Assembly (NCBI GenBank): GCA_040753875.1
Contig: JBFMDV010000005.1
Location: 124,001 to 188,000, forward strand
DNA from: Candidatus Zixiibacteriota bacterium
GTDB taxonomy: Bacteria > Zixibacteria > MSB-5A5 > GN15 > FEB-12
Length of the DNA stretch: 64,000 nucleotides
Reading direction: 5' to 3'
Part shown: positions 16,854 through 62,259 of the stretch, in pieces
Position numbering within the stretch: the stretch's first letter is position 1
Layout of the letters: the number at the start of each line of letters is the position of its first letter
Position numbers and translations under genes: made by a program
The notes under the pieces: model-generated
What the model saw: only the letters and a program-made list of their open reading frames with translations
Databases searched by the model: none
What the model was told of the DNA's origin: nothing

Positions 16854-17177
16854 TTATACATCATCGGCAAGATGGTCGGCAATCTGTTCCTTAATCTCGG
16901 GCCGCCCGTAATAACCTTCTTCGATACGGCGCTTCACTTCGGCGATGCGCTTGTTGCCGGCCAGATCGCGTGCCGGATTTCCGCCGTCAGCCTGGTCCTG
17001 CCCGAGGAGTTCATCGCGGGCCACCGCGGCCAATTGCGACAATCGACGGCGCGCGTCGTCTGTAATCGTCACATTGTCGCAGTGTTTTTGCGCGCCGGCA
17101 ACGTTATCGCTACTGGCTGTAACGGCCGGACGATTCGGCTTCGAAGCTCCACCCGGCGTGGTCGGTCCTATCTTCAT
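16854..17177 (-). CDS. flgM: Anti-sigma-28 factor FlgM
   Basis: 107 aa with a GGAGGGTG Shine-Dalgarno. The first ~50 residues are low-complexity and probably disordered; the C-terminal half (LAGNKRIAEVKRRIEEGYYG) matches the sigma-binding helices of FlgM, including the near-universal R-I-x-x-G-Y/F-Y segment. FlgM holds FliA inactive until it is exported through the finished hook. It lies behind fliS and an FlgN-like chaperone gene in the late flagellar unit. Confidence 0.88.
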   Translation of the reverse strand: MKIGPTTPGGASKPNRPAVTASSDNVAGAQKHCDNVTITDDARRRLSQLAAVARDELLGQDQADGGNPARDLAGNKRIAEVKRRIEEGYYGRPEIKEQIADHLADDV

Positions 17178-37097: not shown

Positions 37098-37113
37098 AGC
37101 ATGGCGCGTGCCA
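37098..37113 (-). promoter_or_regulatory. Sigma-54 promoter of the flgF operon
   Basis: Minus-strand TGGCACG-N4-ATGCT (37113-37098): GG and GC separated by exactly 10 bp, close to consensus TGGCACG-N4-TTGCA. Start expected near 37087, leaving a ~12-nt leader containing the GGAG of flgF. Confidence 0.85.
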
Positions 37114-44270: not shown

Positions 44271-44287
44271 AGCAAGGGCGGTGCCAA
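44271..44287 (-). promoter_or_regulatory. Sigma-54 promoter of the flgB operon
   Basis: Minus-strand TTGGCAC-N5-TTGCT (44287-44271), GG and GC 10 bp apart: essentially consensus. Start expected near 44260, 28 nt upstream of the flgB ATG. No gene lies in 44233-44414. Confidence 0.88.
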
Positions 44288-44414: not shown

Positions 44415-45170
44415 CTACAAGGTGTCACCCGCCGCGACGGCAGGATAGTATAGTTGCGATGATGGCTCTTTGAGGGTCTGTTCCATCGTCAATATCACGA
44501 TATCCACCCGGCGGTTTTGGGCGCGGTTTTCGATGGAGTTGTTCGGTCTGACCGGACGGTACTCACCATAGCCGAGCGCCGATATTTGATCCGGTTTGAC
44601 CGCCCCCTCGTCGACAAAGAACCGTACCACTGAGGTTGCCCGCGCTGACGATAACTCCCAGTTCGACGGATACTGGATCGTACTGATAGGGCGGTCATCG
44701 GTGTGTCCTTCGATACGGATATGATTGGGCAGGCCGCTGATCTTGCCCGCGATGAGGTCGAGCATCTCCACCGCACGCAGTTCGAGATTGGCGGAGGCTT
44801 CCTTGAACAGCGCCGACTCCATAATATGCACCACCAATCCGCGCTCGGTGATCTCGGCTTTGAATTCGTTCTGGCGGTTGACTTCCTTGAACCGCTCCGC
44901 AAGCTGCTTTTGGATCATATTCAGGTCACCGAGCTTGAGCACGCCGTGACCGGTTTTACTCTTTTCCGCAGGGCGTTTAACCAACTGGTCCCCACCCTTC
45001 AGCACACCTTGAAGCGCCTCTGCCATCTTGCCGAATTTTTTGGCATCGATCTGCGACATGGAGTACATAACCACGAAAAAGGCCAGGAGTAATGTGATCA
45101 AGTCGGCGTAGGTGAGCAGCCAGCGTTCGAGGTTCTCGTGGCCGTCATGCTTCTTACGGGTACGGCGCAC
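44415..45170 (-). CDS. motB: Flagellar stator protein MotB
   Basis: 251 aa, GTG start. Single transmembrane helix with the proton-accepting Asp in TYADLITLLLAFFVVMYSM (~19-37), followed by a plug region, then an OmpA-like peptidoglycan-binding domain (IRIEGHTDDRPISTI, SSARATSVVRFFV, LGYGEYRPVRPNNSIENRAQ). Anchors the stator to peptidoglycan. Three bases after motA. Confidence 0.95.
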   Translation of the reverse strand: MRRTRKKHDGHENLERWLLTYADLITLLLAFFVVMYSMSQIDAKKFGKMAEALQGVLKGGDQLVKRPAEKSKTGHGVLKLGDLNMIQKQLAERFKEVNRQNEFKAEITERGLVVHIMESALFKEASANLELRAVEMLDLIAGKISGLPNHIRIEGHTDDRPISTIQYPSNWELSSARATSVVRFFVDEGAVKPDQISALGYGEYRPVRPNNSIENRAQNRRVDIVILTMEQTLKEPSSQLYYPAVAAGDTL

Positions 45171-45173
45171 GGC

Positions 45174-45938
45174 TCAGACCTCGCCGCGGCGGTGCTGCGG
45201 AGCAATAAATGAATGGAGACGAGTCCGGATATTTCGCGGATTGTCGCCGGACTGGATCGCCACAACCCCCTCTGTGATCAATTCGAGATGGGCCATTTCC
45301 TCCTCGTGACGAAGGCGCAGCTTGTCCGAGACCGGTAGGAAAAACAGGTTGGCCAATCCCACTCCCCAGAGCGTGGCAATGAAAGCGGCAGCTATCGAAG
45401 CTGCCATGCGACTGGCATCGGAAGTGTTCCCCAGTGTGTGCACCAGACCGAGTACAGTTCCCAAGATTCCCAATGTTGGCGCAAACCCGCCGGCTTTTTG
45501 GAAAAACGTGATACCTCGCTTGTGACGTTCCTCGACATACGCCATCTCGGTCTCCAGTATCTCCCGCAATACCGTGACTTCCGTGCCATCGATCACCAGT
45601 TGAACCCCCTTACGATAGAACGGATCGTGGATCCGCTTGAGATCCCCTTCGAGTCCCAGAATCCCCTCGCGTCGCGCCTTCTCCGCCATGCGGACGATTG
45701 ATTCGATGGTCGCAGTGAGAGGATGAGACGGGCCAAAGAAAGCCAGTCGGAGATAGCTTGGAACCCTCTTCACCGTATGTATAGACGTCGTAATGATGGT
45801 CGCCCCAAGCGTGCCACCGATCACCAGGAGAATAGGGGCGGTGATGAAAATGGCGTCAAGCTCGCCCCCTTCCAACTTGAAGGCACCCAGGACCGCACCG
45901 AATGCGAGAATCAGACCGATGGCTGTTGCAAGATCCAT
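45174..45938 (-). CDS. motA: Flagellar stator protein MotA
   Basis: 254 aa. Four membrane helices: residues ~5-20, ~30-50, and the pair around GGFAPTLGILGTVLGLVHTL and MAASIAAAFIATLWGVGLAN. The two conserved prolines sit in this pair (one in FAPTLG), and the cytosolic loop contains RREGILGLEGDLKRIHDPFY with the charged residues that contact FliG. Proton (or sodium) channel partner of MotB. Confidence 0.95.
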   Translation of the reverse strand: MDLATAIGLILAFGAVLGAFKLEGGELDAIFITAPILLVIGGTLGATIITTSIHTVKRVPSYLRLAFFGPSHPLTATIESIVRMAEKARREGILGLEGDLKRIHDPFYRKGVQLVIDGTEVTVLREILETEMAYVEERHKRGITFFQKAGGFAPTLGILGTVLGLVHTLGNTSDASRMAASIAAAFIATLWGVGLANLFFLPVSDKLRLRHEEEMAHLELITEGVVAIQSGDNPRNIRTRLHSFIAPQHRRGEV

Positions 45939-46096: not shown

Positions 46097-47449
46097 CTAC
46101 GTGGCTTTCTCGTCTTCGTATTCGGCCAGTTTGTTGCGGATGGTGCGGGTGGTGATACCGAGCGCCTCGGCGGCCCTGGTCTTGTTGCCGTTGAACTTCT
46201 CCAAGGTCTTGAGAATCAGATATTTGCTCCCCTCTTCGAGCTTCATCGGAATCTTCAACATCGGCATGTCATCGGGCATCTGTCCGAGCGCCAGCTCGAC
46301 GGGAAAATCATCTTCGGTCAGGAGTTCGGCGCGCGAAGTAACCACGGCACGCTCGATGAGATTCTCCAGCTCTCGAACGTTACCCGGCCAGTGATATTTC
46401 ACGAACAGCCGCAGCGCGGCATCGTTCAGCCCTTTGACCTGCTTGTGGTTCTCGCGATTGTACCGCTCGACGAAGTGGTTCACCAGCGGTGCAATGTCTT
46501 CCTTTCGATCGTTCAGTCGCGGCAAATAAATGGGAATGACATTCAACCGATAAAACAGATCTTCCCGAAACAGCCCGGCTGAGATGAACTCCTTCAGGTT
46601 CCTGTTTGAGGTCGCAATGATGCGTACATCGACAGAAATAGTGGTGCTGGAACCGACGCGTTCAAACTCCCGTTCCTGGATGACCCGAAGCAGCTTCGAT
46701 TGCAGATTGAGCGGCATCTCGGAGATTTCATCCAGAAGCAGCGTACCGCCATCGGCCAGTTCGAACCGGCCCCGATTAGTTTTTTTAGCGTCGGTGAATG
46801 CCCCCTTCTCATAGCCGAACAGCTCCGCCTCGACCAATGATTCCGGCAATGCGGCACAGTTCAGCTTCACGAATGGGCCCTCACGACGGTTGGATGCATA
46901 ATGGATCGCCCGTGCGACCAGCTCCTTGCCGGTACCGGACGCCCCGGTGATCATCACGGTGGAGCGGGCATCGGCCACCGACTGGATGAGGTCGAATATC
47001 TCCTTCATGATCTTGGATTTGCCGATGATATTCTGAAACCGGTCGGCCAGATCTCTGCGAAGCAGGCTGTTCTCAGTCTTAAGGTGGATCAACTCGGCGA
47101 TGCGGGACATGATATGCTCGACAGCATCCGGCGAGACCGGCTTCAGGAGAAAATCGTAGGCGCCCCGTTTGATCGCCTTCACCGCCGTCTCCACCGTGCC
47201 GTATGCCGTCATGATCACGACCACTACTTCCGGATTCAACCGTTTGAGATGATCCAGAAGCGCCAGTCCGTCGATCTCCTTCATTTTCAAATCAGTCAGC
47301 ACGATATCGAAAGAGCGGGCTTTGAATTTCACCAACGCCTCCTCACCGGAGAGTACCGACACACAGTCGTACCCGGCGCGAGCCAGAGTCTCGGTGAGGT
47401 AATCGTTCACCAGTCTGTCGTCGTCGACGACCAACACGGAATACTTCAT
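46097..47449 (-). CDS. NtrC-family sigma-54-dependent response regulator, probable flagellar master activator (FlrC/FleR-like)
   Basis: 450 aa. Receiver domain (~1-120: DDDRLVNDYLTETLA, phospho-Asp in DIVLTDLKMKEIDGL); AAA+ domain (~145-380) with Walker A GASGTGKE, sigma-54 contact loop KGAFTDA (GAFTGA family), and Walker B GGTLLLDEISEMPL; Fis-type HTH (~405-445: NKTRAAEALGITTRTIRNKL). It overlaps its kinase gene by four bases. Two sigma-54 flagellar promoters lie in the window and are its likely targets. Equivalent to FlrC/FleR by context; specific orthology not provable here. Confidence 0.92.
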   Translation of the reverse strand: MKYSVLVVDDDRLVNDYLTETLARAGYDCVSVLSGEEALVKFKARSFDIVLTDLKMKEIDGLALLDHLKRLNPEVVVVIMTAYGTVETAVKAIKRGAYDFLLKPVSPDAVEHIMSRIAELIHLKTENSLLRRDLADRFQNIIGKSKIMKEIFDLIQSVADARSTVMITGASGTGKELVARAIHYASNRREGPFVKLNCAALPESLVEAELFGYEKGAFTDAKKTNRGRFELADGGTLLLDEISEMPLNLQSKLLRVIQEREFERVGSSTTISVDVRIIATSNRNLKEFISAGLFREDLFYRLNVIPIYLPRLNDRKEDIAPLVNHFVERYNRENHKQVKGLNDAALRLFVKYHWPGNVRELENLIERAVVTSRAELLTEDDFPVELALGQMPDDMPMLKIPMKLEEGSKYLILKTLEKFNGNKTRAAEALGITTRTIRNKLAEYEDEKAT

Positions 47450-48792
47450 AGTCCCTGCTCCCTGTTCACATGATCCATTTTGACCGGCAGCAAAATGCGG
47501 AATCGCGCGCCCCCTTCGGGTCGGTTGTCCGCCACGAGGTCACCGCCATGTGCCTTTATGATCTTCCAAGCCACCGCGAGTCCCAGGCCGTTTCCATCAA
47601 GTTTGGTGGTGAAGAACGGCGCGAATATCCGGTCAATATGCTCCGGCGCAATTCCGGGTCCGCTATCCGCAACGGTAGTTTCCAAAACGGTGTCATCAAG
47701 CCCGAGCAGAAGTCGCTCACCGTACAGATGTGTCGCGCGCTGCCTGCTCAGCCGCTCGCACCCGATTTCGACCCGGCCGCTCTCGCCGCACGCCTCAAGC
47801 GCGTTCTGGAACAGGTTGAACAGAAGTTGCCGCATCAACATGGGATCGATCCACACCGTTGATGATGCACCATCCGATCCGACCGAACCGCGCACCACGA
47901 TACTGAGCGGGGCTGCTCGTTCGGCGTTGTCGCGCCTGAACTGCTCGATAGTCCGATGAAGGAACTCTTCGATATTTGTTTCTTCCTTGTTGACCTCGTC
48001 AAACCGGGAATAATTGAGAAGCGTGGTGACTGTTTTGTTGAGACTCTCTACCCCGTGCATGATCTTCTCGACCAGCGCGCGGCGAGCATCATCATCGGGA
48101 AGGTCTCGAAGCAACAAGGCCGCAAAACCACCTATCCCCGCCAGCGGGTTGCGGACCTCATGGGCGATAGTCGCCGCCATTTCACCCAGCGCCGCCAGCG
48201 TGTTCAGCCGCGCCAGTTCATGTTCCATCCGCTTGAGCTTGGTCAGATCATGGAGCACCTCAACCGCTCCCGCCGGACGGCCCTCGTTATCCCGCAACAG
48301 CGCCGTCGAAGCCGAGAGGTGCAGCCGCGCGCCATCGGCCAGATTGATAACTCGTTCGACCGAATCGACCGCGCGCCCGGTCTCCGCCGCTCTCAGACAG
48401 TTGGCGTCGATAGGGGTACCGGGAGTGATGATATCTCTATATGGCCTCCCCAACGGCTCCTCAAGCGGCAGTCCGAATAACAGGGATGCCGCCGGGTTGA
48501 AATGCGTGATCCGGCCGCTCTGGTCCACCGCGATCACGCCGACTCCCAGCGAGTTGAGAATGCCGTTGAGAAACTCCGTGGCCGCGAGGTTCTTTTGCGT
48601 CATTTCGACCAGTTTGCGGTTAGTCTCCGCCAGACGGTCATTCTGCGCGGTGAACTCTTCCTTCAGCTCGAGATATTGCCGCTGCAGGCCGTTGATTATC
48701 CGGTTGAATGAGGCATACGACTCGGCAAACTGCGCCACATTCGGTTCTGCGTCTATGGCTGTCGGGGTAAACTCTGCCTGCTGCTCATCCAT
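47446..48792 (-). CDS. Cytosolic PAS-domain histidine kinase, partner of the sigma-54 activator (FlrB/FleS-like)
   Basis: 448 aa without membrane helices. N-terminal coiled region (~20-70), PAS (~75-190: FLNGILNSLGVGVIAVDQSG, RITHFNPAASLLFGL), HisKA with phospho-His in ATIAHEVRNPLAGIGGFAA (~215), and HATPase_c (NALEACGESGRVEIG, DSGPGIAPEHIDRIFAPFFT, NGLGLAVAWKIIKAHGG). Soluble PAS kinases coupled to sigma-54 activators sense basal-body assembly in polar flagellates, which suits this position. Confidence 0.9.
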   Translation of the reverse strand: MDEQQAEFTPTAIDAEPNVAQFAESYASFNRIINGLQRQYLELKEEFTAQNDRLAETNRKLVEMTQKNLAATEFLNGILNSLGVGVIAVDQSGRITHFNPAASLLFGLPLEEPLGRPYRDIITPGTPIDANCLRAAETGRAVDSVERVINLADGARLHLSASTALLRDNEGRPAGAVEVLHDLTKLKRMEHELARLNTLAALGEMAATIAHEVRNPLAGIGGFAALLLRDLPDDDARRALVEKIMHGVESLNKTVTTLLNYSRFDEVNKEETNIEEFLHRTIEQFRRDNAERAAPLSIVVRGSVGSDGASSTVWIDPMLMRQLLFNLFQNALEACGESGRVEIGCERLSRQRATHLYGERLLLGLDDTVLETTVADSGPGIAPEHIDRIFAPFFTTKLDGNGLGLAVAWKIIKAHGGDLVADNRPEGGARFRILLPVKMDHVNREQGL

Positions 48793-48859: not shown

Positions 48860-49978
48860 TCAGAAGTAGCTGGCTAGTTCGGCGGCAATATCCTCTATGG
48901 GCACGATATGGTCGGCGATGCCGGCTTCGATGACGGCTCTCGGCATCCCATACACCACGCAGGTGGCTTCGTTTTGGGCGATCACTACGCCCCCCTTCTG
49001 CTTGAGATTGGTCAAACCGACCACCCCGTTGTTCCCCATGCCGGTCAGGATAATCCCCATTGCTGTGGAGGTATAGCTTTCGGCGACTGAGTTCATCATG
49101 ACGTCAACGCACGGCCGGTAGAGGGTGTTGGCAGGCTGGTCGGAAACAATCACGGTGGCCGAGCCTCCCCGTTTTCGCACGGTTATCTGGCGCCCGCCGG
49201 GCGCCAGCAGCACGACTCCCGGCTGGACTGATTCGCCGTCGACCGCTTCACGCACGGCCACCTGCGAAAGGCCATCCAACCGCTCCGCCAGTGACTTGGT
49301 AAACATGGGCGGTATGTGTTGGGCGATGACAATACCCACCGGGAGGTTGCGCGGCAATTTCGGAATGATGCCCTGAAGCGCGGGCGGTCCGCCGGTCGAG
49401 GAGCCGATCGCAACGATGCCGATCGGGTGGTTTCGCCGACGGGTTGTCCGTATCGAAGCAGGTGTTGCGGTTGTGGCCACAGCCAGGTTGCCAACACCGA
49501 GCTTGCCCCTGGCACCAGTCCCGCCCAATTGTCGCTGCCGGTGACGAGCCATGAGCAGGTGCTTGCGCCTGGCGATATCCTTGATCTTGGCCAGCAATTC
49601 TCCTTTGATCTTCACAATGTCCAAACTCACGAATGACATCTGCTTGGGAATGAAATCAACAGCTCCCAGGTCAAGCGCCTCAAACGTGGCATGCGCCCCT
49701 TCGGTCGTCAGCGATGACACCATCATGACCGGCACCGGATCGGTGGCCATGATCTGACGCAATGCAGTCAGGCCGTCCATCCGCGGCATTTCGATATCCA
49801 TGGTGACCAAATCCGGCTTGAGCAGACGGACCTTCTCGATCGCCTCCTCGCCGTCCCGCGCGGTCCCGACAACTTTGATCGTAAGGTCCGACTCGAGCAT
49901 AAGCGTGAGGGCCTTACGCATAAAGGCGGAATCATCCACCACCACAACGTTTATTGTCTTCTCCGGCACGCTGCTCAT
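48860..49978 (-). CDS. cheB: Chemoreceptor glutamate methylesterase CheB
   Basis: 372 aa. Receiver domain (~1-130, phospho-Asp in DLVTMDIEMPRMDGL), linker, then methylesterase domain (~175-372) with the catalytic Ser in AIGSSTGGPPALQ and His in AQHIPPMFTKSLAERL. The third triad residue lies in the normally GMGxDG motif; here it reads GMGNNG, with Asn where the Asp is expected. Demethylates receptors in adaptation. Just after cheA. Confidence 0.93.
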   Translation of the reverse strand: MSSVPEKTINVVVVDDSAFMRKALTLMLESDLTIKVVGTARDGEEAIEKVRLLKPDLVTMDIEMPRMDGLTALRQIMATDPVPVMMVSSLTTEGAHATFEALDLGAVDFIPKQMSFVSLDIVKIKGELLAKIKDIARRKHLLMARHRQRQLGGTGARGKLGVGNLAVATTATPASIRTTRRRNHPIGIVAIGSSTGGPPALQGIIPKLPRNLPVGIVIAQHIPPMFTKSLAERLDGLSQVAVREAVDGESVQPGVVLLAPGGRQITVRKRGGSATVIVSDQPANTLYRPCVDVMMNSVAESYTSTAMGIILTGMGNNGVVGLTNLKQKGGVVIAQNEATCVVYGMPRAVIEAGIADHIVPIEDIAAELASYF

Positions 49979-49990
49979 CGAACCATCATC

Positions 49991-51742
49991 CTACGCCAGT
50001 CGATGTGCGATATTGAACAAACCCAACAGGTCGACTATCAACCTAATCCGTCCATCCCCAAGTATGGTGGCACCGGCAATTCCTTCGGTGGCACCGAAAT
50101 ACTGGCCCAGTGACTTAATGACCACTTCTTCCTGGCCCAGGAACCGATCGATATTGATGCCCAACTTCTTGTCGGCCAGCCCGACCACCACCACATACGG
50201 CTTTTCCGCCAGGGACAGACCGCGGCGGTTTCGTCGCAACACATCACCGACATTGATCACCGGGATGACCTCGTCGCGGAGCCGCAGAACGGGGCGGCCA
50301 TTGACGAAGGAAATGTCCGCCTGGTTCGCTTTCACGGTTTCGAACACCGACGACAACGGCAGGACAAACATCTCGCCGTCGGATTCGATAAGCAGTCCCT
50401 GGATAATGGCCAGCGTCAGCGGAAGTTTGATTGTCAAGGTCGTTCCCCGATCGCGGGCCGACTCCAGTTCGATCAATCCGCTTAGCTTCTCGATATTGGT
50501 TCGGACGACATCCATCCCCACGCCGCGGCCGGACACACCGGACACCACCTTGGCCGTGGAAAAACCCGGCTCGAAGATGAACCGGAACAGTTCCTTTTCC
50601 GACATGCGGTCAACTTCGGCTCGCCCGGCCATTCCCCGTTCCACCGCCTTGTTCCGGATGGCAGCGACATCGAGCCCCTTCCCGTCATCCTGTATACGCA
50701 GCACGATATTCGAGCCCTCCTGGCTCGCTTGCATAGTGATCGTTCCTTTTGCGGGCTTCCCTTTGGCTATCCGGTCCTCAGGTGATTCGATACCGTGATC
50801 GCAGGAGTTCCGTATGATATGCACCAGCGGATCCCCGATCTCTTCGATAACCGACTTATCGAGTTCGGTGTCCTCTCCCGACATGATTAGTTCGATCTGT
50901 TTGTGGCTGTCGCGACTGAGATCGCGAACCAGGCGCGGAAACTTGCTGAACACTTTTCCGACCGGCTGCATGCGCATCTTCATTACCGCCATTTGTAACT
51001 CGGTCGTGATGTAGTTCACGGAGGCCGCCGCCTGATTGAGCTGTTGCACCTGCGCGTTGCCTTCGAACGCCGAGGTGATACGCGAGATCGTCTGCATGAG
51101 GCTGTTCCGGCCGAGCACCAGTTCACCCATCAGGTTCATGAGCGAATCAAGTCGATTCACATCCACGCGGATGGTCTGGTCCGCGGAAACCTTCTTGTCG
51201 ACTCCTGGCTTGGGCTGGGCGGCCACCGCCAACGGCTCTGCCGCCGGTGCCGGAGTCGCTACGTCCTCTGCAGGTGACGCTTTGATCGCAGCGACTTCAA
51301 CGACCGGGGAAGCCTCCGGCAACACCGGAGCGGACCCGCCAGTCTGTATCGCCACCAGATTTGCTACGATCTGAGTGAGATCGAGCCGCTCCGTATTGCG
51401 AGCTCTGACATTCTCGATCAACGTCATGAGCAGGTCGAGCGACGCCAGCAGGACGTCCATTATCTCAGGCGTCACCGCCAGTTCAGCTTTACGCAGCTTA
51501 TTCAGGACGTCTTCCATTTTGTGGGTCAACTCGGTGACCTGATCGAAGCCAAGGAAACTCGAGGTCCCTTTGATCGTGTGCGCGGCGCGGAAAATTTCGT
51601 TCAACAGATTTAAGTCCGACGGCATCGTCTCCAGTTTCACCAGGTTGGTATCCAGTGAATGCAGGAGTTCATCGGTCTCGACCAGGAAATCGTCGATGAT
51701 TTCCTTCATTTCGTCCAGTTGGAGTTCCGTCTCGTTGGACAT
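49991..51742 (-). CDS. cheA: Chemotaxis histidine kinase CheA
   Basis: 583 aa from the ATG at 51742 (AAGGGGGA upstream); a 66-residue upstream extension overlaps cheZ in another frame and is spurious. P1/Hpt domain with phospho-His55 in AAHTIKGTSSFLGF; a short linker rather than a clear P2 CheY-binding domain; P3 dimer helices (DVNRLDSLMNLMGELVLGRN); P4 kinase (HIIRNSCDHGIESPEDRIAK, GVSGRGVGMDVVRTNIEKL); P5 CheW-like end (LPLSSVFETVKANQADISFV). Phosphorylates CheY and CheB. Confidence 0.94.
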   Translation of the reverse strand: MSNETELQLDEMKEIIDDFLVETDELLHSLDTNLVKLETMPSDLNLLNEIFRAAHTIKGTSSFLGFDQVTELTHKMEDVLNKLRKAELAVTPEIMDVLLASLDLLMTLIENVRARNTERLDLTQIVANLVAIQTGGSAPVLPEASPVVEVAAIKASPAEDVATPAPAAEPLAVAAQPKPGVDKKVSADQTIRVDVNRLDSLMNLMGELVLGRNSLMQTISRITSAFEGNAQVQQLNQAAASVNYITTELQMAVMKMRMQPVGKVFSKFPRLVRDLSRDSHKQIELIMSGEDTELDKSVIEEIGDPLVHIIRNSCDHGIESPEDRIAKGKPAKGTITMQASQEGSNIVLRIQDDGKGLDVAAIRNKAVERGMAGRAEVDRMSEKELFRFIFEPGFSTAKVVSGVSGRGVGMDVVRTNIEKLSGLIELESARDRGTTLTIKLPLTLAIIQGLLIESDGEMFVLPLSSVFETVKANQADISFVNGRPVLRLRDEVIPVINVGDVLRRNRRGLSLAEKPYVVVVGLADKKLGINIDRFLGQEEVVIKSLGQYFGATEGIAGATILGDGRIRLIVDLLGLFNIAHRLA

Positions 51743-51752
51743 GCTGTCCCCC

Positions 51753-52355
51753 TTACCGCGACTTCGCTTTGGCAAACATCGAATCGATATCGGTCTGCCG
51801 GGCCTGTTTGTTGGCCAAGTCGGCGTGCGGGTCGAATGCCCGCGTCGGACGAGTCCTCGCTGGATCCTCGCCGGACGCTGATGACCCGCCCGGACCGAAT
51901 CCGCCGAGTATATTCTGCAGACGGTCCTCGATGTCTTCAAGTAACGAGGCCGCGTGGTTCATTTGCTGCGAGGTGATGTCCTGAAACTGGAGTGCCTCCA
52001 TGATCGCATAGGCGTCGTTCAGATTCGACTCAGCTTTTTGTCGGATCGCGGTGATCAGCATGGCGACATCGGCCTGCTGCCGTGCATCGATCATGGCGAT
52101 CAACTGCGCCAGACCGGTGATCACGTCTTCTTCCCGCTGCGTGATATGTTCGACCACGTCGAGCATCCGGTGCGCCGCCGCCTCTGTCTGCGCCGATATT
52201 TTGTCGAGCTGGTTGGTGGCCTGCGGCACCTTCTGCTGCGATTCAACCAGCGGCTCGCGGATCTGTCGCACAGCTTCAAGGAGTCCGCTCACCGACAAGG
52301 CGATCGAACTCAGCTCGCTTTGCAGCCGGCCGTAGATGTCTTGCGTGTCAGTCAT
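51753..52355 (-). CDS. cheZ: CheY-P phosphatase CheZ
   Basis: 200 aa. Long helical hairpin; the catalytic motif of CheZ (LQFQDITSQQMNHAASLLED, with Asp and Gln that activate water in CheY-P hydrolysis) lies at ~125-145. A Pro/Gly/Ala linker leads to the C-terminal DIDSMFAKAKSR peptide, likely the CheY-docking tail. Between cheY and cheA. Confidence 0.85.
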   Translation of the reverse strand: MTDTQDIYGRLQSELSSIALSVSGLLEAVRQIREPLVESQQKVPQATNQLDKISAQTEAAAHRMLDVVEHITQREEDVITGLAQLIAMIDARQQADVAMLITAIRQKAESNLNDAYAIMEALQFQDITSQQMNHAASLLEDIEDRLQNILGGFGPGGSSASGEDPARTRPTRAFDPHADLANKQARQTDIDSMFAKAKSR

Positions 52356-52373: not shown

Positions 52374-52748
52374 TCAGCCGGCCAGCACCTGGTCGATCTT
52401 CGCCTTCAATGTCTCCGGCGTGAACGGCTTCACGATATAGTTGTTCACACCCGCCTTCATCGCCTCAATGATATCCTCTTTGACCGACCGCGTCGTCACC
52501 ATCAAGACCGGGAGCGCCTTGTATTCGTCCATCGACCGCAACGTGGTGACGAACGCCAGGCCGTCCATCTCCGGCATGTTCCAGTCGGTGATTACGAAAT
52601 TCACCTTCTCCTCTTTCAGTTTACCCAGCGCGTCCTTCCCGTCGGTGGCCTCGACCACGTTCTCGAAACCGGCCCGTTTGAGCGTATTGATAATGATCCG
52701 CCGCATGGTGGGGCTGTCGTCAACCGCCAGTATTTTGAGATCCGCCAT
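52374..52748 (-). CDS. cheY: Chemotaxis response regulator CheY
   Basis: 124 aa stand-alone receiver. Acidic pair Asp10/Asp11, phospho-Asp55 in FVITDWNMPEMDGLAF (the classic chemotaxis CheY signature), Thr in MVTTRSVKEDI and Lys in NYIVKPFTPETL. Binds the FliM/FliN switch when phosphorylated. First of two adjacent single receivers, and the better CheY match. Confidence 0.92.
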   Translation of the reverse strand: MADLKILAVDDSPTMRRIIINTLKRAGFENVVEATDGKDALGKLKEEKVNFVITDWNMPEMDGLAFVTTLRSMDEYKALPVLMVTTRSVKEDIIEAMKAGVNNYIVKPFTPETLKAKIDQVLAG

Positions 52749-52775: not shown

Positions 52776-53150
52776 CTATTGGTGTAACTGCCTGGCTATC
52801 TCATCGAGAAGCCGCGATGATTTGAACGGCTTGACCAGATAGGAGCTGGCTCCCACGGCCAGCCCGCGTTCGCGATCGTCCTCCCCCTCTTCGGAAGAGA
52901 GGATGATGATCGGCGTATCGCGATACGTTTCATTCTTGCGCAGCGTATCGATCAACGAATAACCATCCAGATTTGGCATGTTCAGATCCGTTATTACCAG
53001 ATCCACTGGGGACGACAGACGCGAGATCTTCTCAATCGCATCCATACCATCCGATGCCGTCACGACTTCGAAGCCGCTGTTCTTGAGCGAGAACGAAACG
53101 AACTTGACGATGGTCGGTGAATCGTCGACAATCAGTATTTTCTGGCTCAT
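52776..53150 (-). CDS. Second CheY-like single-domain response regulator
   Basis: 124 aa. Asp9/Asp10, phospho-Asp55 in DLVITDLNMPNLDGYSLI, Ser in IILSSEEGEDD and Lys in SYLVKPFKSSRLL. Between cheR and cheY. It could be an alternative CheY or a phosphate sink; its sequence is less CheY-like than its neighbour. Confidence 0.88.
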   Translation of the reverse strand: MSQKILIVDDSPTIVKFVSFSLKNSGFEVVTASDGMDAIEKISRLSSPVDLVITDLNMPNLDGYSLIDTLRKNETYRDTPIIILSSEEGEDDRERGLAVGASSYLVKPFKSSRLLDEIARQLHQ

Positions 53151-53181: not shown

Positions 53182-54192
53182 TTACTTCCTCACTGTCACC
53201 GGTTTGATTTTGCTCAACAGTTCCATCGCCCGGGTAGCGCCGTCGGCCGCGCTCGTGCTCCTAGCCGCCAGTGGAGATGCCGCCGTCCGAACGGTGCATG
53301 GCGCCTGACGGGCCGGTTCGGCGGTGGTTACGGCCGCAGCTTCTTTCTGGTACACCAGGGCGTTCTTGAAGTACACGAGCTTGAACGCCTTGCTGATGCC
53401 GTGCAACGTCTCGGAATGTCCGATGAACAGATAGCCGCCCGGTCGCAGCGCATTGTAGAACCCGCGCACGATCTGCCGCTTCACGTCGTCGGAGAAGTAG
53501 ATCATGACATTGCGGCAGAACACCATGTCCATGCCGCTCACCATGGCCAGCTTGCGCGAGTCATTCAGATTCATATGTGAAAACTTCACCAGCGCTTTGA
53601 CTTCCGGATTCACTCGATAGCTGTCACCGGATCGCGAGAAGTATCGGGCAAGCAGGTCCGGTCGGACGCCTCTCATGGTTATGCCTGAATACTCCCCCAA
53701 ACGCGCTTTCTGGAGCACCTGTTCGGAAATGTCGTTGGCGACGATCTCAATGTTCCAGCCTGCCGCATTCCGCAACCGCTCGAGAATGATGATGGCCAGG
53801 GTATACGGTTCCTCTCCGGTCGAACACCCGGCCGACCAGATGCGAAGCGTCCTGTTCCCCTTGCGGGTTGACTGCTCATTGATCACCAACGGGAGAGCCT
53901 CATCCGAGAAGCACTGCAACTGCGGTTCGTTGCGAAAGAAACTCGTTTCATTGGTAGTCACCAGGTCCATCAGGCGGTGGAACTCTTTCAGAGAGAGGTC
54001 GTACTTCACGTGGTAGAAATAGTCGCGGACGGTCTTGATCTGAAGATCCTCCATCCGCCTGGCCAGTCTGTTCTTGACCAGATACATTTTATTCTCAGGG
54101 AAAAAGATGCCGCTCCGTTCATGGATGAAATCCCGGATCAACCCAAACTCCTCAGCCGTCATTTCGATGTCGCCGTCCAATTGGCCCTGCAT
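53182..54192 (-). CDS. cheR: Chemotaxis protein methyltransferase CheR
   Basis: 336 aa. N-terminal helical domain (EMTAEEFGLIRDFIHERSGI, ...MEDLQIKTVRDYFYHVKYDL), then SAM-binding fold: VTTNETSFFRNEPQLQCFSD, LRIWSAGCSTGEEPYTLAII (GxGxxxGEE), FCRNVMIYFSDDVKRQIVRG, and LFIGHSETLHGISKAFKLV. Methylates receptor glutamates. An extra ~60-residue Ala/Thr tail follows the usual end. Confidence 0.95.
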   Translation of the reverse strand: MQGQLDGDIEMTAEEFGLIRDFIHERSGIFFPENKMYLVKNRLARRMEDLQIKTVRDYFYHVKYDLSLKEFHRLMDLVTTNETSFFRNEPQLQCFSDEALPLVINEQSTRKGNRTLRIWSAGCSTGEEPYTLAIIILERLRNAAGWNIEIVANDISEQVLQKARLGEYSGITMRGVRPDLLARYFSRSGDSYRVNPEVKALVKFSHMNLNDSRKLAMVSGMDMVFCRNVMIYFSDDVKRQIVRGFYNALRPGGYLFIGHSETLHGISKAFKLVYFKNALVYQKEAAAVTTAEPARQAPCTVRTAASPLAARSTSAADGATRAMELLSKIKPVTVRK

Positions 54193-54229: not shown

Positions 54230-54601
54230 TCACTGCTGACGTTTGACGGTCGCCTCGGCAAGTTTGTACAGTTGGTTAATGTTGAACGGCTTGATGATAT
54301 AATCCACTACCCGGCTCCGCAACGCAGAGACCGCGCTGTCAACTGACGGAAATCCGGTCATCAGAATGACAGGGATACTCGGATACTCTTGTTTCAATTC
54401 GGCCGTCAGGGCCAGACCATCCATCTGCGGCATTTTGATATCACTTAGGACCAGGTCCACCGAACGGTCATGGAGGATCTCCAACGCCTTTTCGCCGTTT
54501 TCGGCAACGGCGATCTGCCACCCCTGTCCTGAAAAGAAATCATAGAGGAGATCGCGGATGAGCAGTTCGTCATCGACAACCAGGATTGACGGTTTAGACA
54601 T
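54230..54601 (-). CDS. Single-domain response regulator following the HEAT-repeat gene
   Basis: 123 aa from the ATG at 54601 (AAGGAG upstream). Receiver with phospho-Asp in DLVLSDIKMPQMDGLALTAE, Thr in VILMTGFPSVDSAV and Lys in DYIIKPFNINQL; this surface resembles NtrC receivers more than CheY. It overlaps the HEAT gene by 8 nt, so the two are probably made together. Confidence 0.9.
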   Translation of the reverse strand: MSKPSILVVDDELLIRDLLYDFFSGQGWQIAVAENGEKALEILHDRSVDLVLSDIKMPQMDGLALTAELKQEYPSIPVILMTGFPSVDSAVSALRSRVVDYIIKPFNINQLYKLAEATVKRQQ

Positions 54602-56531
54602 GGTCGGCTCCTTCAAGCGTCGACACTGCCATGCCGATGGCAGTCTCCACATCTTTGTTGGTGTCGCTCCTCAATGAATGGAGAGCCGGCAATGCGTCGA
54701 TCGCCCGCATCTGGGCCAGTCCCTTGATGACGGCGATCTTGACAATATCCTGCGAATCGGTCAGGTACGGCAGCACCAGCGCCGCGAGTGAGGGGTCCCG
54801 CAATTCCGCCAGTGCGTTGATGGCGTGGTAGCGCACCCAGACATCTTCGTCGTCCAGCAGGCATTTGATATCGCGAACTGCCACCCGGCCACAGAGCGCC
54901 ACGAGCGCCGAAATGGCCGCTTTGCGCACACTGCTGTTCTCGTCGTTGAGCGCCACCCGTATAGGCTCCGGATCGCACACCGGTCCCAGCCGCGCCAGCG
55001 CGTTGATCGCGCTCTGGCGCACTGTCGCTTCGGGGTGATTGATCGCTTTGATGAGCGGGTCCACCACGTCCGCCTCCCCTATCATACCGAGGGCCGAGAC
55101 CGCCAGACGTTGTCGCTCGGCGTTTTCGTGGTAGAGGTCGGCCGTGAACTTGGCGACCACCCGTGGCCCGCCAATAACGATCAGCGCGCCGAGGGCGGCC
55201 TCGCGCACGTCGCGATACACGTCATCGAGTCCGGAAAAAATGAAATCGACATCCTGCTCGGAGCATAACCAGCCGAGCGAGAAAAAGGCAGCCGAGCGGA
55301 CATGACCGTTGGCATCCATCGCCAGACGTTTGAGCGTGGTCACGGCTCCGTTGAAGCCGCTGATCCCCAGCACCTGCGCTACCTTGCGCCGAACACCCGG
55401 ATCGGTGTCATCGGCGACAGGAACGAGCATGGCGGCTACCGAATCGTCGACAATCTCCTTGACGATATCGAGAAGAACGATCTTGGCTTCCGGCGCAGCA
55501 CCGCGGAGGCGGTCAAAAAACACTTCTATGGCAGGCTGACCGAGACCGGACAGCAGTTCCGACAGGCGGTGGTGATTCTCTTCAGGCAAGAATGGAATGG
55601 CGTCGACCAGACCGGCTAAAGAGGCGGCCGAAAGCCACCACGAGGGCCTCATCAGCGCGAAGTCGATCATCGCCTGGTCGCCGTTTCGCATGCCTTCAAG
55701 AACCGCTGCCAGAAACCGTTCGAGCGGAATATCACACTCGACAGCCCCGCGATTGCGTGCGTGAATTCTCACCACCGCAGCCAGCGCCGCCTCAGCGATC
55801 GACTGGTCTTTGTGGTCCAGAAATGGCAGGAGGTGAGGGACCGAGTCGGCGAGACCGATCTGCCCTATTGCGTCTATGACGGCGAACAACAACACCGGGT
55901 CGTCGGCAACAAGCCCGGCATACAACTGATGCAGCGTTTCTGATGTACCGATCTTACCGAGCGCCTCGACAACCGACAGGCGGATCTCCTCCCGCGTTTC
56001 AAAAGCGGCCATGAGGTGAGGAACAGCCCTGTTGTCTCGGATCTCTCCCAGCGCCTCCGCGGCGGAACACGCCACATTGCTGTTGGCGTCGCCAAGCCGG
56101 TCGCAGAGCGCTTCGACCGCCTGCGGGTCACCGATCAAACCGAGGACATCAACCACGAACTTGCGGACATCGTGGTCATCGACAGTAATGTTGGCCAGCA
56201 GCGCCGGTACCGCCTCACGACCAATTCGCACGAGAATCTCGGAGGCCAGGTTGCGGGTGCCGATATCCTGATGCTCCAGAAATCGAATCAGGAGGTGCGA
56301 GACGGTGGGACGGTTGGCGCGCACGAGCGAGTCGGCCGCCAGTTCGCGTATACCCAGGTCTGGGTCCTCCAGCGCCAGTACCAGACCGGCCAGCGCTTCA
56401 TCCTGGGCGTAGGTCGCCAGTTCCCGCACCGCCAGTTCACGCGTCGTGAACTCGGGAGACTGCAATCCTGCCAGCAGCTCAACAACCCGTGTAGACGTAT
56501 CCCGCATTCCTTCCACCCCCGCCAATGACAC
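54594..56531 (-). CDS. HEAT-repeat scaffold protein in the chemotaxis/partner-switch operon
   Basis: 645 aa. From ~25 onward almost all residues form ~19-20 HEAT/PBS-lyase type helical repeats of ~31 aa (e.g. DPDLGIRELAADSLVRANRP, DANSNVACSAAEALGEIRDN, DENSSVRKAAISALVALCGR), with one non-repeat segment near 260-340. No catalytic domain. Start is GTG at 56531 or ATG at 56507; both are possible. Sits between STAS and receiver genes and overlaps the latter, suggesting an adaptor for signalling proteins (inference). Confidence 0.85.
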   Translation of the reverse strand: MSLAGVEGMRDTSTRVVELLAGLQSPEFTTRELAVRELATYAQDEALAGLVLALEDPDLGIRELAADSLVRANRPTVSHLLIRFLEHQDIGTRNLASEILVRIGREAVPALLANITVDDHDVRKFVVDVLGLIGDPQAVEALCDRLGDANSNVACSAAEALGEIRDNRAVPHLMAAFETREEIRLSVVEALGKIGTSETLHQLYAGLVADDPVLLFAVIDAIGQIGLADSVPHLLPFLDHKDQSIAEAALAAVVRIHARNRGAVECDIPLERFLAAVLEGMRNGDQAMIDFALMRPSWWLSAASLAGLVDAIPFLPEENHHRLSELLSGLGQPAIEVFFDRLRGAAPEAKIVLLDIVKEIVDDSVAAMLVPVADDTDPGVRRKVAQVLGISGFNGAVTTLKRLAMDANGHVRSAAFFSLGWLCSEQDVDFIFSGLDDVYRDVREAALGALIVIGGPRVVAKFTADLYHENAERQRLAVSALGMIGEADVVDPLIKAINHPEATVRQSAINALARLGPVCDPEPIRVALNDENSSVRKAAISALVALCGRVAVRDIKCLLDDEDVWVRYHAINALAELRDPSLAALVLPYLTDSQDIVKIAVIKGLAQMRAIDALPALHSLRSDTNKDVETAIGMAVSTLEGADHV

Positions 56532-56538
56532 CTCTCTC

Positions 56539-56889
56539 TCAGAGCGTAGTGACCGGCTGATACGACGAAAGCGCTTCCTCTTCAGAGGAGAAGATCTCGA
56601 AAATGTGCGACAACTGCGTGATATCGAAGATCTCCTGCACGTAGTTAGCCAGGTTGGACAACGTCAGGCGCCCTTTGAACATCCTGACTTCTTTCATGAT
56701 CGACACCAGCGCCCCCAGTCCGGAGCTGTTGATGAAATCGACTCCGGTGAGGTTCAGGTGTACGCAGGTGGTGTTCTTCCCCAGCAGCTTCTTCACCTGT
56801 TCCTTCAGGATCGTGCCGCTGGCCAGATCCAGCCTGCCGTTGAGCTGCAGTACCGTCACCGGTCCCTGCTGCCGCGTTGAAATCTCCAT
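56539..56889 (-). CDS. STAS-domain anti-anti-sigma factor (RsbV/SpoIIAA-like)
   Basis: 116 aa from the ATG at 56889 (GGAGGA upstream). STAS fold: VTVLQLNGRLDLASGTILKE, HLNLTGVDFINSSGLGALVS (conserved Ser55/Ser56 as phospho-acceptor) and the EIFDITQLSHIFEIFSSEEE end. It follows a HATPase kinase and PP2C-type phosphatase, completing an Rsb-like switch. Confidence 0.9.
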   Translation of the reverse strand: MEISTRQQGPVTVLQLNGRLDLASGTILKEQVKKLLGKNTTCVHLNLTGVDFINSSGLGALVSIMKEVRMFKGRLTLSNLANYVQEIFDITQLSHIFEIFSSEEEALSSYQPVTTL

Positions 56890-56907
56890 AGCGTCCTCCG
56901 CTTGCAC

Positions 56908-57336
56908 TTATAAAGCAACCGTGTTCTTCTCGCGTTTCACCCTGATAGTGACCGTCAGACCGCCGCCGGCGTTTTCCCGAAACGAGACCTCGCTCGAACA
57001 GTGCCGAATCAGATCTATCCCGCGGCCCCCTTCCGCCAGCAGGCCGGGCGGGCTCTTTCGCTCAATCGCCTTCACTCCTCCAACCCCTTCGTCCGTTATA
57101 TCGGCACTTATCTCCGTTTCGTTTACCGCGATGTCCACGAGGATTCTCTTATCCGGTTGTCGCCGGTTGGCGTGTACCAGTGCATTGGTAAACGCCTCGG
57201 ACATGGCCAGCATGAGCCGCTGAGCCGGTGTTGCCTCGACGTGGTATTTCCTCAAAACCCTCTCAACATCATCCAGAAACCGGCCTTCCGATTCGCTTAT
57301 CGACGGATAGCTGAATTGATATCGCTGCGTCGTCAT
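56908..57336 (-). CDS. RsbW/SpoIIAB-like serine kinase (HATPase_c anti-sigma type)
   Basis: 142 aa from the ATG at 57336, which overlaps the preceding stop (ATGA). GHKL kinase motifs: N-box RLMLAMSEAFTNALVHANRR, G1 ITDEGVGGV, G2 LLAEGGRGIDLIRHCSSEVS. These enzymes bind and phosphorylate a STAS partner and, in free form, bind a sigma factor or another target. Target here unknown. Confidence 0.9.
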   Translation of the reverse strand: MTTQRYQFSYPSISESEGRFLDDVERVLRKYHVEATPAQRLMLAMSEAFTNALVHANRRQPDKRILVDIAVNETEISADITDEGVGGVKAIERKSPPGLLAEGGRGIDLIRHCSSEVSFRENAGGGLTVTIRVKREKNTVAL

Positions 57337-58622
57337 TTCACCCACACCTGCAGCACCGTGAAATCATCGTGAGTGTCATCCGGCGCGCCTTTGGAGAACG
57401 CGTCCACCGTCTCTTTCATCTTCTGACAGAAGGCCGACGGCGCCAGCTCCAGTCCGGCTACAAAGGCCTGTTCGGCCCGCTCCCGGCCGAACAACTGGCC
57501 ATAGATGTCTGCTGCCTCTGTCAAACCGTCTGTGAAAAGAAATAGCCTGTCGCCGGTCCTCAACTGACACTCCTCTTGTATAAAAGCACAGCCCGGGAAC
57601 TGCCCGACAATCGGTCCGCCTGCCGCAAGATTGCGCACTTGCCTGGCGGTACTGTCCCAAAACAGGCCTGGCAGGTGCCCGGCATTACAGTAGCTCAGCG
57701 TCCGGGCGGCAACATCGACCCTGGCCAGAAACAGCGTGACATACATCTCGCGGTCCTTGACAATGCTGCTGGCCAGGAGATCGTTGAGCGCCCCCGCCAG
57801 TTCCGCCATGGTTATGGCAGGATTGGTGCACAGCAGCGACCGGATGATGCCAGACGCCGCCGACATCACCAGCGCCGCCGGCACCCCCTTGTTGGACACA
57901 TCGCCCAGCAACACGACAAACGACGAGTTATCCAATCTTGCGATATCATAGAAGTCCCCACCGACTTCGCGGGCCGGGTGGTACACGCTTCCAATCTCCA
58001 CCCCTTCAACTGCCTGAAGATTCTGTGGGAGAATCGTCTCTTGCACCTGCCGGGCGATCTGCATCTCCTGTTCGACCTTCTGGCGCCTCAAAGTCTCTTT
58101 CATCAGGAGGGCGTTGTCGACCGCCACGGCCACGAAATTCAGGAGCATCTCCAGGATCTCCTGGTCTTGCGAATTGTAGGGGCCGCCGTTCGCCTTGTTT
58201 ATGATGATCATGACGCCAAAGCATTTCTCGGCGGTCCGGATCGGCAGCGCTATCAGTGAGTTGAGCGCAATTCCTTCGGTACGAAGCCCGATATCGTTCT
58301 GAACGATCGCCTGGCCCGAGCTGAAACAGAAGCTCGGCAGATCCATCTGCTCGCCGTGCTTGAGCGAACGGGCGAATGTCTCGCTCACTCCCCACGAGAT
58401 CTTGGGCTTCAGTTCCCCCTCTTCTTCCATCATGATAAGCCCGACCTCACCGTCAACCAGGCGGATCGCCATGTCCATAACCACCGACAAGACCTTGTCG
58501 ATCTCATGTATCGATGTAATGACCGCCCCCATGGTGGTCAGGTCGCAGAGCTGCGCCTTCTGAACCCCAAGGCGGGCTTCCAGTTGCTCGATCTGTGATT
58601 CCCAGTTGTACACGGTAGCCAT
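57333..58622 (-). CDS. GAF-SpoIIE PP2C-type serine phosphatase (RsbU-like)
   Basis: 429 aa. N-terminal coiled coil (~5-30), GAF domain (~35-175: LVDGEVGLIMMEEEGELKPK, AEKCFGVMIIINKANG), linker helix with EQEMQIARQVQETILPQ, then SpoIIE/PP2C (~215-429) with EVGGDFYDIARLD, LLGDVSNKGVPAALVMSAAS, NAGHLPGLFW and DDTHDDFTVLQV carrying metal-binding Asp residues. Would dephosphorylate the STAS protein in response to a GAF-sensed signal. First gene of the partner-switch/chemotaxis run; no Shine-Dalgarno is visible. Confidence 0.92.
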   Translation of the reverse strand: MATVYNWESQIEQLEARLGVQKAQLCDLTTMGAVITSIHEIDKVLSVVMDMAIRLVDGEVGLIMMEEEGELKPKISWGVSETFARSLKHGEQMDLPSFCFSSGQAIVQNDIGLRTEGIALNSLIALPIRTAEKCFGVMIIINKANGGPYNSQDQEILEMLLNFVAVAVDNALLMKETLRRQKVEQEMQIARQVQETILPQNLQAVEGVEIGSVYHPAREVGGDFYDIARLDNSSFVVLLGDVSNKGVPAALVMSAASGIIRSLLCTNPAITMAELAGALNDLLASSIVKDREMYVTLFLARVDVAARTLSYCNAGHLPGLFWDSTARQVRNLAAGGPIVGQFPGCAFIQEECQLRTGDRLFLFTDGLTEAADIYGQLFGRERAEQAFVAGLELAPSAFCQKMKETVDAFSKGAPDDTHDDFTVLQVWVK

Positions 58623-58631
58623 ATGCCAACT

Positions 58632-58659
58632 GTATCGGCAGGTCGAGAAGATTGGTTTA
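58632..58659 (-). promoter_or_regulatory. Sigma-28 type promoter of the partner-switch/chemotaxis operon
   Basis: Minus-strand TAAA (58659-58656), 16-bp spacer, GCCGATAC (58639-58632). The expected start (~58624) is two or three bases from the ATG at 58622, implying leaderless translation, consistent with the missing Shine-Dalgarno. Confidence 0.65.
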
Positions 58660-61387: not shown

Positions 61388-61411
61388 CGCTTTCACGCTA
61401 ATTGCTTGGGG

Positions 61412-61439
61412 AATATAGACAAACACGGTCGGAAGTCAA
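61412..61439 (-). promoter_or_regulatory. Sigma-70 type promoter of DUF512-der
   Basis: Minus-strand TTGACT (61439-61434), 16-bp spacer, TATATT (61417-61412). Start near 61405, ~63 nt upstream of the ATG. Confidence 0.7.
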
Positions 61440-61467
61440 GGGGGGCAGACTCAGATATCGATCAGTC

Positions 61468-62259
61468 ATGAACTTCAACTTGACTTCAACGGAGGATTCA
61501 ATATCTCTTCCGTCGGTGACCTTCCGCATAAATAAGGAAGACGAAGTGCGTATTTGGATAGCATACATCGATGAAAGTGGCACACATGGGAATTCATCAC
61601 ATGTTGTAGTTGCATCTGTGCTTGCCGCAGCTAACGCCTGGCAGGAGCTACGTCCCAGGTGGGAACATGCCTTGAAATCCCGCGGGCTCACGCGCTATCA
61701 TGCGCAGGAATTCAATCGCAGATCAGGTGAGTACGCACAGTTAACGAGTCAAGAATTGAATTCGTGTGCCGCCGAGCTACTGCAGGCGGTAAATGACACT
61801 CAGATACAGTACGTCGTGTATGTCATTGAAAGATCGCTGTTCGAATCAAAAAAGCCAACCATTTCGGTATATGACTACTTGCTGGCCACAACCATAGCAG
61901 ATTTAATGATCAAGGGCGAGGCTGATGGCATTGATGCTTTGTTTGTAATCATTGAGCAGGGGTCCGGTTTGGACACCACTCTGTGCGATTTGTTAACGAG
62001 AGCGGCTTATGCACGTAGATTGGGACCTGTGGGACATATTAGCTGGCGCCCTAAGGAACCAGAACTATTCCAACTGCAGGTAGCCGACATGATTGCCTTC
62101 GAATCATACAAATATATAACATCACCCACCAAAGCGGTGAGAAGGTCCTACCAAGCAATCACTAGTGGACACCCACTCGCACCATATCTGATTCATGCCA
62201 GTATGCTGGATTGCGATTTGCCCAAAGCACGAGAGTTCTTGGATAGATTTCAGAAATGA
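61468..62259 (+). CDS. DUF3800 domain protein
   Basis: 263 aa from the ATG at 61468; a GTG at 61546 (AAGGA seven bases upstream) would put the hallmark YIDESGTHG near the start as in most family members and may be the true start. Other conserved parts: RYHAQEFN, FVIIEQGSGLD and LQVADMIAFESYKY (Asp near end of family core). DUF3800 proteins have an RNase H-like acidic set and are frequent in mobile or defence contexts; activity unproved. Lower GC than the neighbours, opposite strand, beside a tRNA gene: probable acquired gene. Confidence 0.82.
   Translation: MNFNLTSTEDSISLPSVTFRINKEDEVRIWIAYIDESGTHGNSSHVVVASVLAAANAWQELRPRWEHALKSRGLTRYHAQEFNRRSGEYAQLTSQELNSCAAELLQAVNDTQIQYVVYVIERSLFESKKPTISVYDYLLATTIADLMIKGEADGIDALFVIIEQGSGLDTTLCDLLTRAAYARRLGPVGHISWRPKEPELFQLQVADMIAFESYKYITSPTKAVRRSYQAITSGHPLAPYLIHASMLDCDLPKAREFLDRFQK

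Follow-up and report, generated by a model that had tools for sequence, protein, structure and literature searches.

Several described systems share parts with the locus examined here. In Pseudomonas aeruginosa, motility is controlled by a phosphatase, a GHKL kinase, and a STAS protein whose genes lie in a flagellar region, in a module lacking a cognate sigma gene; FliA is released when dephosphorylated HsbA captures FlgM (HsbR-HsbA-FlgM/HsbD; PMC6482189, PMC5085249, PMC8256260). The Bacillus systems RsbU/RsbW/RsbV and SpoIIE/SpoIIAB/SpoIIAA draw on the same three enzyme and target families. In the FleSR, FlrBC, and FlgSR systems, a PAS kinase adjoins an NtrC-type sigma54 activator, and sigma54 promoters serve the rod/basal-body operon (PMC7064773); in haloarchaea, flagella cannot switch direction without a HEAT_PBS protein (PMC2666748). 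Here, we analyze a stretch of 64,000 nucleotides (nt) from Candidatus Zixiibacteriota bacterium (the window), part of a 550-kb contig in a 3.29-Mb genome, where genes for a complete serine partner switch, a HEAT-repeat protein, and a lone receiver (RR1) stand with chemotaxis genes ahead of a FleSR-like pair. Assignment to Candidatus Zixiibacteriota also follows from the relatives of the HEAT protein. Across relatives, the switch proved to accompany RR1 and the FleSR-like pair, and the HEAT protein to accompany the chemotaxis genes. The open-access literature yielded nothing on such an arrangement, on flagellar regulation in Zixibacteria, or on HEAT proteins with che genes in Ignavibacteria.

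The genes run on the minus strand in the order GAF-SpoIIE, RsbW-like kinase, STAS, HEAT, RR1, cheR-RR2-cheY-cheZ-cheA-cheB, where RR2 is a second receiver, followed by a FleS-like histidine kinase (HK) and an NtrC-type sigma54 activator; the operon-like run continues with motAB and flgB-flgC-fliE-fliF-fliG-fliH-fliI. An earlier reading of the same letters (the original prediction) had described the stretch from the SpoIIE gene to cheB as a partner-switching module plus HEAT scaffold fused to a chemotaxis operon. Its genes lie where it placed them, on the same strand, and both an ATGA overlap joining the SpoIIE and RsbW-like genes and an 8-nt overlap of HEAT and RR1 (ATGTCTAA) were confirmed in the sequence.

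Every part of an Rsb/SpoII-type switch is present with its motifs intact, namely a PP2C-type SpoIIE phosphatase, a GHKL serine kinase, and a STAS protein with an acceptor serine. The metal-binding residues D223, D241, D365, and D419/D420 of SpoIIE are conserved in 23 sequences. The N/G1/G2 boxes of the RsbW-like kinase retain E50, N54, D85, G87, and GRG107-109; its SEAFTNA, DEG, and GRG boxes are kept in relatives, and its best solved relatives are SpoIIAB proteins. The phospho-acceptor loop of the STAS protein, INSSGLG, is invariant in relatives. Phosphorylation-dependent partner exchange is predicted for this set. GAF-SpoIIE and the HATPase kinase form a single protein of about 575 amino acids (aa) in one family, and kinase and STAS form one of about 265 to 300 aa in several others; as judged from gene structure, these SpoIIE-RsbW and RsbW-STAS fusions show that the three predicted switch proteins act together. 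Median pairwise identity is 62% for both STAS and RR1 and 39% for the kinase, as expected if the STAS protein has a further conserved partner besides the kinase. Neither the window module nor any homologous gene order examined contains a recognizable sigma gene, in contrast to the SigB- or SigF-type genes alongside the Bacillus switches.

To determine which of these genes belong together, gene orders were compared among relatives, most of them metagenome-assembled genomes (MAGs) and not independent of one another; switch homologues were sought within Zixiibacteriota. The HEAT gene occurs in 32 of 61 relatives and FliG in 55 of the 61. The surroundings of HEAT vary little: most of 31 HEAT-bearing relatives, far more than chance would give, show the order tatC-DUF512-der-SpoIIE-RsbW-STAS-HEAT-RR1-cheR-RR2-cheY-cheZ-cheA-cheB-HK-NtrC-motAB, and deviations are few. 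In flagellated relatives lacking HEAT, the equivalent chromosomal slot reads der-SpoIIE-RsbW-STAS-RR1-HK-NtrC-motAB-flgBC, with neither HEAT nor cheR, although in a few such loci a cheY-like gene or a remnant of CheA persists; both layouts are present in other families of the class. Of the 55 loci that are complete over the STAS-to-HK span, 25 carry HEAT and cheR, 2 HEAT only, none cheR only, and 28 neither (Fisher p = 1e-13, with independence inflated by kinship). Whether or not che and HEAT genes are present, 53 of these 55 contain RR1 and 48 contain NtrC.

The converse arrangement emerged from a HEAT-profile scan of GTDB genomes, which recovered homologues in Ignavibacteria, Melioribacteraceae, other Bacteroidota-labelled MAGs, and KSB1. 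In about 38 loci of Ignavibacteria and related genomes, HEAT heads the che operon, usually as HEAT-cheR-RR2-cheY-cheZ-cheA-cheB-flgB-flgC-fliF, and SpoIIE, RsbW, and STAS were not seen in the fetched flanks. Each occurs without the other: HEAT goes with the che set, and the switch with RR1-HK-NtrC. By this pattern of occurrence, HEAT would belong functionally to HEAT-cheR-RR2-cheY-cheZ-cheA-cheB, and that set is probably an older unit, interleaved with the switch unit in this lineage (STAS-HEAT-RR1-cheR). On the strength of this double dissociation, we reject as a general rule that the switch is part of chemotaxis. The original prediction, which had treated the switch as a unit with HEAT and CheA, had itself named relatives with the switch away from chemotaxis genes as evidence against it, and such relatives were found.

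The switch instead tracks flagella. Of 98 genomes from the phylum, 77 have both STAS and FliG, 14 have neither, and 7 have only one of the two (5/2), an agreement of 91/98 (Fisher p = 4e-11; relatedness overstates independence, and FliG was the sole marker by which flagella were scored as absent). The predicted link of a complete partner switch, with no sigma gene adjacent, to motility is supported. Two near-complete genomes without FliG (G105 and G107) keep STAS-RR1-RR1'-HK-NtrC, where RR1' is a second receiver, with INSSGLG intact, which points to the HK/NtrC pair over the motor; the related G108 has FliG. As in FleSR, FlrBC, and FlgSR, the PAS kinase adjoins the NtrC-type activator in a flagellar region, and the rod/basal-body operon carries sigma54 promoters. 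This pair (46097-48792), which the original prediction had not weighed, is the constant neighbor of the switch.

Promoters were called as consensus matches with shuffle controls. Upstream of SpoIIE, a sigma28-type promoter (TAAA-N14-16-GCCGATAA) reached at least 10/12 in 24 of 53 loci, che-less ones included (shuffles, mean 0.7, maximum 2). In the window, about 10 nt separate the end of its -10 box from the SpoIIE ATG, and in most loci with such a site this distance is 8 to 12 nt, suggesting near-leaderless SpoIIE transcripts. A sigma28-type promoter also precedes motA in 19 of 32 relatives, with no clear one in the window itself; none above shuffles was found before HK, cheR, HEAT, cheA, or flgB. 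The sigma54 promoter of flgB was detected in 23 of 25 homologous upstream regions and in 0 on the control strand. No sigma54 promoters were found before SpoIIE, STAS, or cheR, and those before HK (2/60) and motA (1/34) are near background. From this layout, NtrC/sigma54 is predicted to drive the rod/basal-body operon, and sigma28 the switch, chemotaxis, and motor genes. The conservation of gene content and of promoter sites is strong.

FliA is encoded elsewhere in the genome, beside an FlhG-like gene, and only one other protein carries Sigma70_r3. A Pfam search had suggested that FlgM was absent; this was revised when synteny revealed a divergent candidate that Pfam alone misses. The candidate sits between FlgN-like and HDOD genes, as does profile-positive FlgM in two relatives (L173, L174), and is 35% identical over 40 aa to the FlgM of one relative. 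The statement that no sigma factor is encoded here accordingly holds for the window and not for the genome, and the view that the usual output is missing was too strong given a constant FleSR-like neighbor, sigma28-type promoters on the switch, and FliA in the genome.

We tentatively favor, at somewhat short of even confidence, a partner switch of the Rsb/SpoII type that belongs to the late (sigma28) flagellar genes and whose STAS output acts together with RR1 on the FleSR-like sigma54 system. Sigma28 (FliA) would transcribe the switch late, alongside motor genes. The GAF-SpoIIE phosphatase and RsbW-like kinase would set the phosphorylation of a STAS serine (Ser61 or Ser62 in the SSGL loop), and the free STAS protein would be the output. 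Beyond the STAS protein, we infer that STAS and RR1 act on the FleS-like kinase and FleR-like activator that would drive the sigma54 rod/basal-body operon, so that a GAF-sensed signal may link the late stage of the flagellar program back to its middle stage. The HK/NtrC pair is favored as target because its adjacency is constant, because RR1 lies between with an NtrC-like helix alpha1, and because of the two FliG-less genomes. That helix (VDDELLIRDLLYDFF) is near-invariant and resembles that of NtrC, unlike those of CheY, RR2, and CheB. A wider claim, put forward with more reserve, is that the whole class possesses a serine partner switch as a possible third layer of its sigma54/sigma28 flagellar program, made under sigma28 and reporting via STAS and RR1 to the FleSR-like pair, with the HEAT-che set optional and interleaved.

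Several observations weigh against the proposed action on the FleSR-like pair. In the FliG-less genomes, no SpoIIE or RsbW gene adjoins the retained cluster. In most che-less loci, the HK gene follows RR1 at a distance of 60 to 277 nt and could have a promoter of its own; the conserved gene order may reflect hitch-hiking within an operon. A link between HEAT and the switch is possible, since the HEAT gene sits between those for STAS and RR1, overlaps the latter, and persists in two loci that lack cheR (L057, L222). Finally, sigma28 control of the switch fits FliA/FlgM feedback equally well.

The last point leads to a close rival, unlikely in our estimate, in which dephosphorylated STAS would bind FlgM, or the RsbW-like kinase would itself be the anti-sigma of FliA, and the switch would set late flagellar expression. 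In its favor are FliA in the genome, the FlgM candidate, the sigma28-type promoter, through which such control would become a feedback loop, and a direct precedent in HsbR-HsbA-FlgM (PMC6482189, PMC5085249, PMC8256260). However, in the loci examined the switch never adjoins fliA or flgM and nearly always adjoins RR1-HK-NtrC, which also survives with STAS in the two genomes lacking FliG. The systems differ in build as well, since HsbR is a receiver-phosphatase-kinase fusion, whereas a GAF sensor is found here and the proteins are for the most part encoded separately, with fusions in some relatives. The original prediction, in which the switch would act directly on the HEAT scaffold, CheA, or the motor and so link a GAF signal to tumbling or swimming, we consider improbable. 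The interleaved order and the 8-nt overlap, kept in many families, the two loci with HEAT and no cheR, and the requirement of a Halobacterium HEAT_PBS protein for flagellar switching and taxis (PMC2666748) are consistent with such control, but the 28 complete loci without HEAT and cheR and the roughly 38 HEAT-che loci with no switch nearby speak against it. Least probable is that RR1 is a mere phosphate sink for HK/NtrC or CheA and that the switch target is encoded elsewhere, for instance as a diguanylate cyclase; several partner switches do act on non-sigma targets (HsbA-HsbD, PMC5085249; review, PMC8256260) and further modules in this genome could share targets, but class-wide adjacency of STAS and RR1 suggests a local one.

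Those further SpoIIE/STAS modules number at least two (L227 3428-5923, minus strand; L228 3773-6480, minus strand), making cross-talk possible; one adjoins a GGDEF protein and a polysaccharide-export-like gene. RR1' often follows RR1 in relatives and is absent in the window; it shares the alpha1 signature and has a C-terminal extension resembling a coiled coil. Coordinates are collected in the table.

Features of the window, with examples of RR1' from relatives
Feature	Position	Strand	Basis
Sigma28-type promoter TAAA-N16-GCCGATAC directly before SpoIIE	58632..58659	-	11/12 consensus matches
GAF-SpoIIE (PP2C-type) serine phosphatase, 429 aa	57333..58622	-	Pfam SpoIIE 4.9e-40, GAF 3.7e-10
RsbW/SpoIIAB-like serine kinase (HATPase_c_2)	56908..57334	-	Pfam 3.7e-19
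STAS-only anti-anti-sigma-type protein; likely start ATG 56889	56539..56907	-	Pfam STAS 5.8e-20, TIGR00377 above cut-off
HEAT-repeat protein, 645 aa; likely start ATG 56507	54594..56531	-	Pfam HEAT_2 1.2e-70
RR1, single-domain receiver of NtrC/AtoC type, signature VDDELLIRDLLYDFF	54230..54601	-	Pfam Response_reg 5.8e-30
cheR methyltransferase	53182..54192	-	Pfam CheR 1.1e-61
RR2, CheY-like receiver	52776..53150	-	Pfam; always accompanies che set
cheY	52374..52748	-	Best NCBIfam model CheY, 5e-41
cheZ	51753..52355	-	Pfam CheZ 3.4e-11
cheA: Hpt, dimerization, ATPase, CheW-like domains	49991..51745	-	Pfam
cheB	48860..49978	-	Receiver and methylesterase sequence; position conserved
FleS/FlrB-like PAS histidine kinase (HK)	47446..48792	-	Pfam PAS, HisKA, HATPase_c; constant neighbor
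FleR/FlrC-like sigma54 activator (NtrC-type; receiver, AAA+, Fis helix-turn-helix)	46097..47449	-	Pfam Sigma54_activat 5.5e-72, HTH_8
motA and motB	44415..45938	-	Sequence; position conserved
Sigma54 promoter TGGCACCGCCCTTGCT before flgBC-fliEFGHI	44271..44286	-	Consensus match
Second sigma54-like promoter TGGCACGCGCCATGCT before flgF/flgG-type gene	37098..37113	-	Sequence match in the window
Divergent FlgM candidate (anti-sigma28)	16854..17177	-	Weak Pfam 0.042
RR1' examples	L223 9101-9625; L224 9298-9828; L225 6551-7057	+; +; -	

The chemotaxis genes of the window encode CheA with its full domains, CheR, CheB, CheY, and CheZ. CheW and receptors are absent from the window, as had been noted; two methyl-accepting chemotaxis proteins and one CheW are encoded elsewhere in the genome. 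Like haloarchaeal OE2401F (HEAT_PBS), the HEAT protein is encoded in a chemotaxis region beside che genes (PMC2666748). The archaeal protein serves a different flagellum and has CheF partners, whereas HEAT precedes cheR in Zixiibacteriota and Ignavibacteria; the likeness is one of genomic context. Matches of HEAT to solved structures were mostly artificial alphaRep proteins and uninformative, and one HEAT frame fused to a ClpC-like N terminus (L063 8932-11541, minus strand), the first 230 or so aa of which resemble Clp protease, most likely reflects a chimeric MAG contig. Two loci (L129, L130) read cheB-HEAT-cheR-RR2-cheA(~950 aa)-cheB with no flagellar genes in view, possibly placing HEAT in a nonflagellar chemosensory system too. 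Several che-less relatives (G039, G048, G052, and others of family f4) encode elsewhere a distant CheA of about 800 aa and about 40% identity, and a different chemosensory system may replace the che set there. In relative G024, a CheZ-like region and CheA share one 775-aa open frame (L090 735-3062, plus strand), and two relatives encode 309-aa CheA-like proteins beside cheY (L053 12226-13155, plus strand; L079 8370-9299, minus strand) with phosphotransfer and ATPase regions and no dimerization or CheW-like domain.

Elsewhere in the window, two TPR-glycosyltransferase proteins encoded between flagellin-type genes (23098-27319, minus strand) probably glycosylate flagellin. A DUF3800 gene of opposite orientation (61402-62259, plus strand) separates the DUF512 gene from tatC and was not seen there in the relatives examined.

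The partner switches that steer motility and can be traced in the literature are chiefly those of Pseudomonas. Here, one is near-universal in the flagellated members of an uncultured phylum, beside sigma54 flagellar regulators and with sigma28-type promoters. To our knowledge, a serine partner switch and lone receiver constantly preceding a FleSR-like pair occur in none of the described systems. In both Zixiibacteriota and Ignavibacteria, the HEAT protein is probably a chemotaxis component that has gone unrecognized; haloarchaea offer a functional precedent. Together, these data offer a connection, concrete enough to test, between serine phospho-switching and the hierarchy of flagellar genes, and if the STAS protein and RR1 do report to the FleSR-like pair, this would join Ser/Thr and His/Asp phospho-signaling.

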